Below, in pieces: positions 4,959 through 14,061 of a DNA stretch of 64,000 nt. The translations under genes and the position numbers were made by a program. Each line of letters begins with the position of its first letter. Positions within the stretch are counted from its first letter, which is position 1. Under the pieces are notes generated by a model. The model ran no database searches. It was not told the DNA's origin and worked only from the letters and a program-made list of their open reading frames with translations. This DNA comes from Aminobacter anthyllidis (GTDB lineage Bacteria; Pseudomonadota; Alphaproteobacteria; Rhizobiales; Rhizobiaceae). Where the stretch lies: the NCBI RefSeq assembly GCF_018555685.1, contig NZ_JAFLWW010000002.1:434001-498000 (forward strand). The letters run 5' to 3'.

Positions 4959-5816
4959 TCAAAGAGTCGGCAGAACCCGTCGGACATGCTCGGCAAATGC
5001 CTCGACCGCGGGCGACCGTTCGGCATCGGCGTATGCGATCAGGATGCCAAGGGTCGACAGCTGCGGCAGTGGCGCATTGAGGATGTAGAGGTCGGACGGG
5101 ACCGCTTCCTTGGTCATGACGCTGATCGCCATCCCGGACCGCGCGACGGCGATCAGTCCAGCAAGGCTGTTGCTCGCATATGAAATCTTGTAGCGCAGCC
5201 CCGCACGAGCCATGGCGTCGCAGGCGGCCCTGTGGTCCATCGCATTTGAGGCCGGCAATGCCATCGGAATTGTCTCGCCGAAATCGTGCAGTTCAAGCGT
5301 CGGCTTGCTGCCTACCCAGACCAGCGGTTCCGGCCGCACGACATCGGCGGAATCGGTCGCATTGGGAGTCGAGACCAGCGCCAGGTCGACTTGCCGCGAA
5401 TTCAGCAGGCCGCGAAGCTCGACGGTCGGCGCCGAGACGACCTTGATCTCGACATCGGGATAAAGGCTGCCGAAGGTTTTCAGGATCGTGGGAAAGAAGG
5501 CGATCAGATAGTCTTCGGGGCTGCCGAATATGATCGAACCGTGCAAGCCCTTGTCCGAGAGCGCCGACACAGCCTCGTCGTGCAGCTTGAGGATGCGCTC
5601 GGCATAAGCCAGGAATCGCGCCCCGCTCGCGGTCAGGCTGACCCCGCTGCCGCTGCGATGAAACAGGCTCTGGCCGAGCACGTCCTCGAGCCGCTGTATC
5701 TGCATGGTCACAGCCGATTGCGTCCGGCCCACCTGCACGGCGGTCGCGCTCAGCGTCCCCAGTTGGGCGGCCCGAACGAACGTGGCCATCAGCCTTAGAT
5801 CCAGCGACGTCTGCAT
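4959..5816 (-). CDS. dgdR: LysR-family regulator of the dgdA cluster (DgdR-like)
   Basis: A 285-residue LysR-type regulator. The N-terminal winged helix-turn-helix spans about residues 5-64 (LDLRLMATFVRAAQLGTLSA and RTQSAVTMQIQRLEDVLG); the periplasmic-binding-like effector domain follows from about residue 90. It is transcribed divergently from dgdA across a 92-bp spacer, the arrangement of dgdR and dgdA in Burkholderia cepacia, where DgdR represses the decarboxylase until 2-aminoisobutyrate is present. The family is certain. The DgdR role rests on gene position, and the effector may differ because the cluster is larger here. Confidence 0.85.
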   Translation of the reverse strand: MQTSLDLRLMATFVRAAQLGTLSATAVQVGRTQSAVTMQIQRLEDVLGQSLFHRSGSGVSLTASGARFLAYAERILKLHDEAVSALSDKGLHGSIIFGSPEDYLIAFFPTILKTFGSLYPDVEIKVVSAPTVELRGLLNSRQVDLALVSTPNATDSADVVRPEPLVWVGSKPTLELHDFGETIPMALPASNAMDHRAACDAMARAGLRYKISYASNSLAGLIAVARSGMAISVMTKEAVPSDLYILNAPLPQLSTLGILIAYADAERSPAVEAFAEHVRRVLPTL

Positions 5817-5857
5817 ATCAATTTTCCTGATATCTGGATCAAAGCATTATCAATTTT
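5816..5857. promoter_or_regulatory. Candidate DgdR binding region in the divergent promoter
   Basis: TATCA at 5816-5820 and TGATA at 5828-5832 form a dyad of the LysR type. TATCAATTTT also occurs as a direct repeat at 5816-5825 and 5848-5857, 32 bp apart, close to three helical turns. The first copy overlaps the dgdR start codon. This fits a LysR recognition site plus a second promoter-proximal contact, but no binding has been shown. Confidence 0.5.
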
Positions 5858-5908
5858 ACTGCATCCCGGCCAGCCCCTATCGTTTTGCTGACCATTGAGG
5901 GCTGCGAA

Positions 5909-11173: not shown

Positions 11174-12799
11174 ATGACACTTCGCGTCTCATCTCCCGCC
11201 TACATTCCGGGCAAAAACGACGACGATCTGGAGAACCGGGTGCTGCCGCGGATCCTGCTGCGGCAGGCCGAGCGCTTCGGCGGCAAGCCGTTCATCGACG
11301 TCTGCGGGCGCAGCGCGAGCTTCGAGGACATGCTGCTCGTATCGAACCAGCTGGCTCGCGGCCTGCGCCAGTTGGGCGTGAACCGGTCGGATCGCGTTGC
11401 AATGCTGCTGCCCAACTGCTTCGAGCTCGTCGCGCTCTGGTTCGCGACATCCGGTCTGGGGGCGATCGAGGTACCCACCAACCCCGGCCTGAAGGGCGAC
11501 CTGCTCTGCCACAACCTGAACAATTGCGGGGCGGAAGTGCTCGTCGCCGACGCCAATGCGCTGGCCGAAATCGCTAGAGTTCAGGACGATTTGCCCAGCC
11601 TGCGGACCCTGATCCTAGTCGGAACGGACCCGGCCGAAGCCCGGGCGGCGGGCATCAGGATCGGCCGCATCGTCAGCTTCGACGAATGCGTGGCGCCGCA
11701 GCTGGGCTTCGACCTTGTCGACGTCCACTACTCCGATCCGATGGCGATCCTGTACACCTCGGGCACCACAGGTCCCGCCAAGGGCGCCCTGATGTCCCAC
11801 CATCACTGCTATTCCTGGGCGGCAGCGATGGCCTCCAACCTGGGCTACACCGCCAACGACAGCTATTTCTCGGCCTTGCCGCTGTTTCACACCGACGCCC
11901 AGATGTTCGGTGTTCTTCTGCCCTTGATCTACGGCACGAAAACGACGCTGGTCGAGAGCTTCAGCGCGTCAAGGTTCTGGGACCAGATGCGCGCCAGCGG
12001 CGCAACCGCGACAAATCTGCTCGGCGCCATGGCGGTCATCCTCATGCGCGCTGCGCCCTCGGAGAACGACCACAGCAACTCCGTCAGGATATGCCAGTGC
12101 ATTCCGATGGTACCCGACAGGGAGGCATTCGAACGCCGCTTCGGCATGCGGCTGGTGACGGGATACGGACAGACTGAAACCAGCTTCGTGGCGCTGGACA
12201 CTATCGGCGAAACCCGACCGGGTTCCTGCGGCCGGCCGCATCCGGACTGGGAAGTGGCGATCGTCAACGAATCCGACAGGCCTCTGCCGCCCGGAAGCGT
12301 CGGCGAGATCGTGTCGCGGCCGAAAAAGAGCTGGAGCATGTTCTCCGGCTACTACCGCGCCGACGCAAAGACCATCCAGACGCTGAGAAACCTCTGGTAC
12401 CATTCCGGCGATGCCGGCTTCATCGACGAAGACGGCTGGCTCTATTTCAAGCATCGCCTCAACGAGGCAATCCGGCGGCGCGGCGAGAACATCTCCGCCT
12501 ATGAGGTGGAGACTGTCGCCGAGAAGCACCCCGACATCTTGGAAAGCGCAGCCTTCGGGGTTCCCTCGGAGCTGACGGAAGAAGACATCATGGTCGTAGC
12601 GCAACGCAGGCCCGGTTCGGCGCTGGAGCCCACCGATTTGATCGATCACTTTGTGGCTCTCGCGCCCCGCCACATGGTGCCGCGCTACATCGAGATCACC
12701 GACGCGCCGCTTCCCAGAACACCTACGGAGAAGGTCGCCCGCAGCAGCCTGCGGCAGCGCGGCGTGAGCGATGCCACCTTCGACCGGGGGCCGAGATGA
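11174..12799 (+). CDS. AMP-forming acyl-CoA ligase
   Basis: A 541-residue ANL-superfamily enzyme that would activate a carboxylic acid as acyl-AMP and then acyl-CoA. Motifs in order: YTSGTTGPAKGALMSHH (P-loop, about residues 194-210), YGQTET, HSGDAGFIDEDGWLYF, RRRGENISAYEVE, and the catalytic Lys in PTEKVARS near the C-terminus. It resembles CaiC-type crotonobetaine/carnitine ligases. Hcm loci in other bacteria include a 2-hydroxyisobutyrate ligase, which suggests the acid substrate here enters the mutase. The ATG at 11174 lies 7 bases past the hydratase stop; a longer upstream frame is antisense-like sequence and is rejected. Confidence 0.87.
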   Translation: MTLRVSSPAYIPGKNDDDLENRVLPRILLRQAERFGGKPFIDVCGRSASFEDMLLVSNQLARGLRQLGVNRSDRVAMLLPNCFELVALWFATSGLGAIEVPTNPGLKGDLLCHNLNNCGAEVLVADANALAEIARVQDDLPSLRTLILVGTDPAEARAAGIRIGRIVSFDECVAPQLGFDLVDVHYSDPMAILYTSGTTGPAKGALMSHHHCYSWAAAMASNLGYTANDSYFSALPLFHTDAQMFGVLLPLIYGTKTTLVESFSASRFWDQMRASGATATNLLGAMAVILMRAAPSENDHSNSVRICQCIPMVPDREAFERRFGMRLVTGYGQTETSFVALDTIGETRPGSCGRPHPDWEVAIVNESDRPLPPGSVGEIVSRPKKSWSMFSGYYRADAKTIQTLRNLWYHSGDAGFIDEDGWLYFKHRLNEAIRRRGENISAYEVETVAEKHPDILESAAFGVPSELTEEDIMVVAQRRPGSALEPTDLIDHFVALAPRHMVPRYIEITDAPLPRTPTEKVARSSLRQRGVSDATFDRGPR

Positions 12800-12939
12800 T
12801 CGGAGCATACCGGGCCATCCAGGCAGTCTGAACATGCGGTGTCGCCGACATCGGCAGAGGCGGAACTCCAAACTTGGTGCGACCGGTGGGCACGCACGAA
12901 GCAACAACCAAAGCCCACATGCTAATGGGAGTCCAATTC

Positions 12940-14061
12940 ATGAAGAAGCTGCTCTTGCATTCGATAGCCTTGGCCGCTCTGGGCTTGTTCAGCGGTAGTG
13001 CCTGGGCCGACATACTGATCGGCGTCGCCGGGCCGATCACTGGCCCGAACGCCGCCTTCGGCGCGCAGTTCCAGAAAGGCGCCGAGCAGGCGGCCGCGGA
13101 TATCAATGCGGCCGGCGGCGTGCTTGGCCAGAAGATCAGGATCCAGGTCGGGGACGACGTTTCCGATCCGAAGCAAGGCATTTCGGTCGCCAACAAGTTC
13201 GTGGCTGACGGCGTCAAATATGTCGTCGGCCACTTCAACTCGGGCGTATCGATCCCGGCATCCGAGGTCTATGCCGAGAATGGCGTCCTTGAGATCTCGC
13301 CTGCATCGACCAATCCGCAATATACCGAGCGCGGCCTGTGGAACACCTTCCGCACCTGCGGCCGGGACGACCAGCAAGGCCAGGTCGCCGGCGACTACAT
13401 TGCCGCGAACTTCAAGGATACCAAGATCGCCATCATCCACGACAAGAGCCCCTATGGCCAGGGGCTGGTCGACGTTGCGAAAAAGGTGCTGAACGGCAAT
13501 GGCATCAACGAGGTGCTGTACGAAGGCATCAACATCGGTGACAAGGATTTCTCTGCCCTCATCGGCAAGCTGAAGGAGGCCGGCATTACGCTTATCTACT
13601 TCGGCGGCCTGCACACCGAGGCCGGCTTGATCATGCGGCAGTCAGCCGACCAGGGCCTGAAGGCCATTCTCTTCTCGAGCGACGGCATGGTGTCAAATGA
13701 ACTCGCTTCGATCGCCGGCGACGCCGTGATTGGCACCTTGAACACATTCTCGCCCGACCCGCGCAAGAACCCGGCGGCGAAGGATCTGGTCGAGAACTTC
13801 CGGGCCAAGGGCTTCGAGCCGGAAGCCTACACATTGTACTCCTATGCCGCTGTTCAGATCGTTGCCGCCGCCATTGCGAAAGCGGGTTCGGCGGACGACG
13901 CCCAGAAGGTCGCCGACACGATGAAGGCAAGCGGCCCATGGCCGACGGCGATCGGCGACATCGGCTACGACGCCAAGGGCGACATCACGCGTCCGGACTA
14001 TGTCATCTACGAATGGAAGAAGGGCGACGACGGACAGCCGACCTATGCCCAAAAACAGTAA
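12940..14061 (+). CDS. Branched-chain-amino-acid-type ABC transporter substrate-binding protein
   Basis: A 373-residue type I periplasmic binding protein of the LivJ/LivK family. A signal peptide ([23 protein letters not shown]) precedes the mature start [18 protein letters not shown]. Typical signatures are [34 protein letters not shown] and [13 protein letters not shown]. It would capture a small branched amino acid or acid for import. No permease or ATPase genes lie next to it, so it must use a LIV-type transporter encoded elsewhere. Start chosen at 12940 because GGGAG lies 8 bases upstream. It is the last gene of the cluster; the 140-bp gap before it contains only a weak GCCG/CGGC hairpin. 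Confidence 0.9.

Follow-up and report, generated by a model that had tools for sequence, protein, structure and literature searches.

A stretch of 64,000 nucleotides from the 6.7 Mb genome of Aminobacter anthyllidis (contig NZ_JAFLWW010000002.1, positions 434,001 to 498,000), called the window in the following, carries a compact gene block that starts with a gene for a 2,2-dialkylglycine decarboxylase family member (DgdA) and continues with genes for a B12-dependent acyl-CoA mutase resembling 2-hydroxyisobutyryl-CoA mutase (HCM; subunits HcmA and HcmB), a MeaB-type chaperone, an enoyl-CoA hydratase (ECH), an AMP-dependent acyl-CoA ligase (ACS) and a LIV-type periplasmic binding protein (LivBP). 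A LysR-type regulator gene lies divergently upstream of dgdA (Table 1). A sequence-only reading had proposed these enzyme identities and a compact unit with ligase, hydratase and LIV-type protein, and this was borne out, as all genes were found in intact frames at the positions given there. ATGA overlaps join the B12 subunit to MeaB and MeaB to the mutase, and the gaps measure 15 bp between dgdA and the B12 subunit gene, 10 bp between mutase and hydratase, and 7 bp between hydratase and ligase. The dgdA frame is open from a TTG at 5885, with the ATG at 5909 as the likelier start, and 12940 is the likely start of the LIV-type protein gene. At this locus, the closest named relatives are Aminobacter carboxidus and A. 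ciceronei.

Table 1. Features of the gene block, in positions of the window.
Feature	Position	Strand or place	Evidence
LysR-type regulator, DgdR-like	4959-5816	-	Pfam LysR HTH and substrate domain; divergent from dgdA
Two-part operator (predicted)	5816-5857	between LysR and dgdA	TATCA-N7-TGATA at 5816-5832 and TATCAATTTT at 5848-5857
DgdA, 2,2-dialkylglycine decarboxylase family	5909-7246	+	666.6 bits to 1d7r
B12-binding (HcmB-type) mutase subunit	7262-7723	+	TIGR00640, 135.8 bits (cut-off 57.45); PF02310
MeaB-type G-protein chaperone	7720-8718	+	TIGR00750, 307.1 bits (cut-off 240.75); PF03308
Acyl-CoA mutase large subunit, HcmA-type with V90, D117, Q208	8715-10406	+	729 bits to 4r3u; trees
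Enoyl-CoA hydratase (ECH), crotonase fold	10417-11166	+	PF00378, 164.6 bits
AMP-dependent acyl-CoA ligase (ACS), PRK06155-like, not HCL	11174-12799	+	PF00501/PF13193; PRK06155, 493.7 bits (below cut-off 722)
LIV-type periplasmic binding protein (LivBP)	12940-14061	+	PRK15404, 367.2 bits (below cut-off 477)

Related loci were searched for with six query peptides, a procedure that favours close relatives, and the 79 loci obtained (cited by L numbers where they have to be told apart) were split at 79% mutase identity into 31 close and 48 distant ones, the latter with 46–62% identity. Genes were counted by set identity thresholds and only within the fetched DNA, which in some cases ended at a contig end. 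The B12 subunit and MeaB were present at all 31 close loci, DgdA, ECH and ACS at 30 each, and LivBP at 27, and the flanks held an AraC regulator at 16 loci, a short-chain dehydrogenase/reductase (SDR) at 12, a thiolase at 12, a 2-hydroxyacyl-CoA lyase at one, and HCL, the known ligase for 2-hydroxyisobutyrate (2-HIBA), at none. At the 48 distant loci HCL was counted 40 times, the lyase three times, ECH twice, and DgdA and ACS not at all. The block occurs in Mesorhizobium, Sinorhizobium, Shinella, Phyllobacterium, Labrys, Roseovarius and others, so that the conserved neighbourhood of dgdA and mutase anticipated by the sequence-only reading is not confined to one strain; its expectation that dgdA belongs to related mutase clusters held for the close loci but not for the more distant ones.

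In a sample of 397 genomes of the order, the mutase was found at E ≤ 1e-190 in 11. In all four genomes whose mutase is at least 91% identical (our own among them), dgdA sits on the same contig and strand at a distance of about 1.5 kb, and the seven genomes with a 56–60% mutase are not in the DgdA list. DgdA itself was found at E ≤ 1e-150 in 39 of the 397 genomes, 35 of which have no close mutase. Within the genus, the mutase was present in three of nine other genomes. Protein distances of LysR, DgdA, MeaB, mutase, ECH and ACS were correlated with one another (Spearman 0.84–0.93, 378 pairs), to which shared species history contributes; the correlations were weaker for LivBP (0.67–0.78) and weakest for the short B12 subunit (0.36–0.47). 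L009, which contains an inverted duplicate, L030 and L081 were excluded from this comparison. It is confirmed that the dgdA and mutase genes form one conserved unit, beyond chance.

The DgdA of the window reached 666.6 bits to the dialkylglycine decarboxylase (DGD) of Burkholderia cepacia (1d7r), and the runner-up family in the PDB, GABA transaminase, reached 229.7 bits; a racemase or GABA transaminase identity for this class III enzyme was ruled out by these PDB scores. All nine DGD positions that were checked agree, including Q52, W138, M141, S215, K272 and R406, which we take to be the catalytic ones, and across 43 DgdA sequences these vary only at S215, in a single sequence. In the tree, the DgdAs of the clusters form one clade (30 sequences, support 99/96) separate from 13 other DgdAs, namely those of eight of the 35 order-sample genomes with stand-alone dgdA, four actinobacteria and B. 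cepacia; L024 and L081 were left out. From its family membership, the window protein is predicted to catalyse decarboxylating transamination of 2-aminoisobutyrate (Aib), a substrate reported to give acetone (PMC10169451).

The large mutase subunit scored 729 bits to HcmA (4r3u), 459 bits to human methylmalonyl-CoA mutase (MCM) and 236 bits to IcmF, and two MCM-like copies elsewhere in the same genome share 43–44% identity with it. Of 22 positions chosen as substrate contacts after work on MCM, 19 carry the residue of HcmA, whereas Val90, Val206 and Ser286 stand in place of its Ile, Met and Ala. Asp117 and Gln208 of HcmA are present, and position 90 is Val instead of the HcmA Ile in 30 of 30 sequences of the close clade. 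Asp117 of HcmA is said to bind the substrate hydroxyl, the HcmA variant I90V is reportedly active, and D117V is reportedly the change that gives high activity with pivalyl-CoA. Since position 90 is Val and not Ile, the protein is called HcmA-type here rather than a proven HCM. Pivalate had been among the candidate substrates of the sequence-only reading; it is disfavoured, as is a pivalyl-CoA mutase identity, because the acidic Asp117 is retained.

Two lineages close to the dgdA-linked mutases carry more telling neighbours. The L032/L070 lineage is their sister in the large tree (support 100); its mutases have V90, and the adjoining ECH is 48% identical to that of the window (compared for L070). 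The ligase of L070 is a true HCL with 681 bits to 6hdw, the solved 2-hydroxyisobutyryl-CoA synthetase, the HCL of L032 is 98% identical, and L070 also carries an SDR. The mutase of L024 (Peristeroidobacter soli) is nested inside the dgdA clade (96/85 and 99/99) and is identical to the window mutase at 22 of 22 checked positions. No DgdA was found in the L024 genome at E ≤ 1e-120. Next to the mutase lie genes for a 3-hydroxybutyryl-CoA dehydrogenase and for a 2-hydroxyacyl-CoA lyase that scores 658 bits against a cut-off of 600 and reaches 453 bits to 7pt1. The neighbours in L032/L070 and L024 lead us to predict 2-hydroxyisobutyryl-CoA as the compound entering and 3-hydroxybutyryl-CoA as the one leaving the mutase; a C5 homologue of 2-hydroxyisobutyryl-CoA is the other probable substrate. 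The mutase tree omits L030, L062, L072, L080 and L081, of which L030 and L081 matched the mutase in pieces only, and a careful version was built from 39 of its 80 sequences.

Some side observations concern the same protein families. Within 8600–16200 of L024, the B12 subunit, MeaB and mutase genes stand with the 3-hydroxybutyryl-CoA dehydrogenase, the 2-hydroxyacyl-CoA lyase and another ligase, which makes this locus a candidate acetone or 2-HIBA pathway uniting lyase and mutase. Relatives of the lyase (46–54%) also lie in the fetched DNA of the HcmA-type mutase loci L048, L055 and L068. At three Shinella loci (L021, L022 and L069; about 1100–3300), the dgdA cluster is preceded, at a distance of a few kb, by an MCM-like mutase of about 712 residues. 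A mutase-HCL cluster with I90 was present in nine actinobacterial genomes, and six of these (those of L040, L041, L045, L051, L060 and L066) have a DgdA (61–63%) outside the fetched mutase loci.

The regulator was compared with those of dgdA genes that stand alone. The LysR of the window is 47–56% identical to LysRs beside four of eight stand-alone dgdA loci. The two-part operator, with a spacing of 31–32 bp, matches its motif at 18–20 of 20 letters in the window and at 30 of 30 dgdA cluster loci, the motif having been built from the same sequences that were scored, and none of 1500 random slices of the window exceeds 14 of 20. With a stricter pattern, this site is the sole match in the genome. 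In four of four stand-alone dgdA/LysR pairs, the operator is similar, not identical (16–17 of 20 letters, 31-bp spacing). Because both operator and LysR resemble those of the stand-alone pairs, the regulator is likely the equivalent of DgdR, as the sequence-only reading had suggested, and co-induction of the block with dgdA is predicted. Isovaline is reported to induce DGD activity (PMC10169451).

The ligase of the block lies outside the HCL/PaaK family; 6hdw was not among its PDB matches at E ≤ 1e-30, and no relative at E ≤ 1e-140 was found in 384 other genomes of a class sample. The hydratase has two Glu at places that we judge by eye to be the catalytic ones. At 12 of the 31 close loci, an SDR of the 3-hydroxyacyl-CoA dehydrogenase type II family and a thiolase (TIGR01930, over its cut-off) lie near the block, and where present they would complete a route to acetyl-CoA. 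The LIV-type Bra system and Aap carry Aib in Rhizobium leguminosarum, according to PMC2978685 and PMC5407991, and for this reason the LIV-type protein of the cluster would suit an amino acid, perhaps also a hydroxy acid.

A link between the acetone expected from DgdA and the mutase would need a one-carbon extension, and a formylation of the ketone followed by a mutase reaction has been proposed for sulfate reducers (PMC7888143). The 2-hydroxyacyl-CoA lyase was sought with NF058623 (cut-off 600) in our own genome and in 32 others, L013 being left out. The best score in our own genome was 213 bits, and only one of the 32 others had a protein over the cut-off, that of L024, which lacks dgdA. A lyase-like protein of the Labrys genome (L012) reached 357.7 bits and fitted PRK05858 better, with 441 bits, again short of the cut-off. 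The seven thiamine enzymes that NF058623 matched in our own genome score best as IlvB, PRK08199, PRK07524, PRK08266, Xsc, IolD and Gcl, in each case above the cut-off of that family, and a bridge from acetone and formyl-CoA was rejected as the principal explanation, as neither a lyase nor an oxalyl-CoA decarboxylase is among them. As a possible trace of acetone carboxylase, our own genome gave one Acetone_carb_G match of 38 bits (cut-off 21) in a frame of 595 residues, which had no NCBIfam match at E ≤ 1e-100 and whose neighbours look by eye like a thiolase and OB-fold proteins.

We consider it somewhat more probable than the contrary that the block is a two-branched catabolic operon of the DgdR type, serving the breakdown of C4 and perhaps C5 acids with a tetrasubstituted alpha carbon. 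In the first branch, DgdA would convert Aib or isovaline with pyruvate to acetone or butanone, CO2 and L-alanine, as predicted from its family. In the second, the non-HCL ligase would form 2-hydroxyisobutyryl-CoA or 2-hydroxy-2-methylbutyryl-CoA, a shift of the thioester by the B12 mutase, assisted by MeaB, would give a 3-hydroxyacyl-CoA, and the hydratase, an HSD10-type dehydrogenase and a thiolase would lead on to acetyl-CoA, while the LIV-type protein would import the acids. Substrates, activities and co-induction in this scheme are predicted from the gene identities, their linkage and the conservation of residues and operator. The sequence-only reading is supported in part, namely in its quaternary-carbon theme, its enzyme identities and its single unit. 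It had named one larger substrate and two parallel branches as both possible, and of these the two branches fit better, because a lyase that would turn acetone into 2-hydroxyisobutyryl-CoA is not recognisable in this genome at the cut-off used.

Several results weigh against this explanation. HCL is absent at 31 of 31 close loci and in the window, and a search at E ≤ 1e-80, run without a positive control, found none in 31 of 31 genomes. The substrate of the ligase is therefore a guess, and 2-HIBA is not taken as settled, mainly because HCL is replaced in the dgdA clusters by another ligase, for which the class sample offers close relatives only within the cluster. The hydratase is conserved at 30 of 31 loci yet is not needed by a 2-HIBA route, and its service to an ethylmalonyl-CoA pathway was rejected, as crotonyl-CoA carboxylase/reductase is absent in our own genome (the Caulobacter control was positive). 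At 19 of the 31 loci, including L004, the fetched DNA holds no SDR and thiolase, nor does the window, and the rest of our own genome was not searched for them. Searches for lyase and acetone carboxylase identified no acetone-consuming route in our own genome. Finally, the careful mutase tree joins L032/L070 and the distant sequences to the clade by long branches.

Among other explanations, an entry of Aib itself into the mutase branch is unlikely. Here, the ligase would form 2-aminoisobutyryl-CoA, the mutase would yield 3-aminobutyryl-CoA, and the crotonase-fold protein would remove ammonia to give crotonyl-CoA, which it would also hydrate, with DgdA as a second outlet. The hydratase is the best argument for this route, because 2-HIBA alone leaves that enzyme unexplained where crotonyl-CoA carboxylase/reductase is missing, and the route would account for its presence at 30 of 31 loci. 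It would also agree with a DgdR-type operator preceding the whole unit and with the replacement of HCL by a ligase whose close relatives in the class sample are confined to the cluster, and Asp117 could presumably bind ammonium as well as hydroxyl. However, all 22 checked positions are shared with the mutase of L024, which adjoins a 2-hydroxyacyl-CoA lyase, Val90 and ECH are found also beside a true HCL, and we know of no aminoacyl-CoA mutase in the HcmA family. If the route were true, it would be free of decarboxylation and keep all carbon of Aib, and the thioester of an alpha-amino acid would be a substrate for which, to our knowledge, no acyl-CoA mutase has been described before.

It is distinctly unlikely that 2-HIBA is a mere analogue of the true substrate and that the latter is one larger or different branched compound, such as an acid akin to isovaline, to lotaustralin or to some residue of peptaibols. 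Val90 leaves slightly more space than Ile90, the ligase has no close relative in the class sample apart from the cluster, and the natural substrate of mutase-HCL clusters is stated to be unidentified in PMC7176365. Yet the other checked mutase positions are almost all as in HcmA, and the additional families found in the flanks of at least eight loci are only the AraC regulator, the SDR and the thiolase.

We regard as improbable a linear route in which an unrecognised thiamine enzyme would join acetone from DgdA with formyl-CoA to 2-hydroxyisobutyryl-CoA, which the mutase would convert to 3-hydroxybutyryl-CoA. The mutase clade is paired with the acetone-making DgdA or, in L024, with an acetone-linked lyase, the proposal for sulfate reducers gives a precedent (PMC7888143), and the Labrys genome holds a lyase-like protein below the cut-off. 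Against this stand the absence of a lyase over the cut-off from our own genome, its occurrence in a single one of 32 others, which lacks dgdA, the assignment of the seven thiamine enzymes matched in our own genome to other families, and the higher score of the Labrys protein as PRK05858; moreover, the ligase would be superfluous. A chance adjacency of dgdA/dgdR and a mutase operon might be read from the order sample, in which 35 of the 39 genomes with DgdA have no close mutase, but is extremely improbable in view of the linkage at 30 of 31 close loci across several families, the correlated distances and the conserved order.

The proposed two-branch operon shares parts with several known systems. 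It resembles the dgdA/dgdR pair of B. cepacia in the DgdA family with its checked residues, and stand-alone pairs have a divergent LysR with a similar operator; it differs from them in that no mutase, ligase or hydratase relative was among the frames picked beside the eight stand-alone dgdA loci, which do not include that of B. cepacia. With the hcl-hcmAB-meaH cluster for 2-HIBA of the Aquincola tertiaricarbonis type, it has in common an HcmA-type large subunit, a separate B12 subunit, a MeaB chaperone and a ligase, but the ligase is not HCL, Val90 replaces Ile90, a hydratase and a LIV-type protein are added, and the regulator is a LysR and not a GntR, the usual one for mutase-HCL clusters according to PMC7176365. 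The 2-hydroxyacyl-CoA lyase route (A. chiangmaiensis DSM 45062; acetone formylation proposed in Desulfosarcina cetonica) is alike in the expected acetone and 2-hydroxyisobutyryl-CoA, whereas the dgdA-bearing genomes searched have no lyase over the cut-off. The aib cluster of Rhodococcus wratislaviensis (AibH1H2GF) is another case of LysR-associated Aib catabolism; as described in PMC7782822, it is an oxygenase route to D-methylserine, independent of dialkylglycine decarboxylase. In contrast, no such hydroxylase or dehydrogenase gene lies within the unit of the window, the rest of the genome not having been searched for one.

Among the matches listed in the open-licence literature, outside which most subscription papers lie, none linked a dialkylglycine decarboxylase to a 2-hydroxyisobutyryl-CoA mutase. 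Both enzyme word groups co-occurred in PMC7782822 only, the available text of which deals with another pathway, and no listed match had the DgdR regulator as its topic by title. This suggests that known enzyme kinds stand here in a new combination under one operator type, in a block that was not found described in that literature.

Around the block, a tRNA-Gln gene (TTG; 4782–4856, + strand) is separated by about 100 bp from the LysR gene, on the side of its 3' end, and might mark an integration boundary of the cluster. On its 3' side (14144–25268), a GNAT acetyltransferase and an anhydro-N-acetylmuramic acid kinase are followed by a dipeptide-type ABC transporter (16821–18617 and 19404–20621) and MurA (24012–25268), and these genes look like muropeptide or peptide uptake. 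Elsewhere in the window lie genes for pyruvate phosphate dikinase (1367–4144), nitrite reductase NirB (29384–33232) and an RND efflux permease (35440–38523, - strand).

The block ties an HcmA-type mutase to an Aib-decarboxylating family and its type of regulator, which makes Aib and isovaline, together with the corresponding 2-hydroxy acids, the suggested natural substrates. Peptaibols are named as a source of Aib in PMC10169451, and acetone cyanohydrin of the linamarin pathway as a precursor of 2-HIBA in PMC2847961; a connection of these substrates to legume hosts may be supposed. The linkage, seen in bacteria that live in soil or with roots, may reflect a joint pathway through which carbon skeletons used by few microbes are broken down. 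Aib is called non-metabolisable and is used as a tracer in R. leguminosarum (PMC5407991), and its consumption by strains that bear the block is quite conceivable. For the production of 2-hydroxyisobutyrate, new candidates are at hand in the ligase and in the mutases with Val90.

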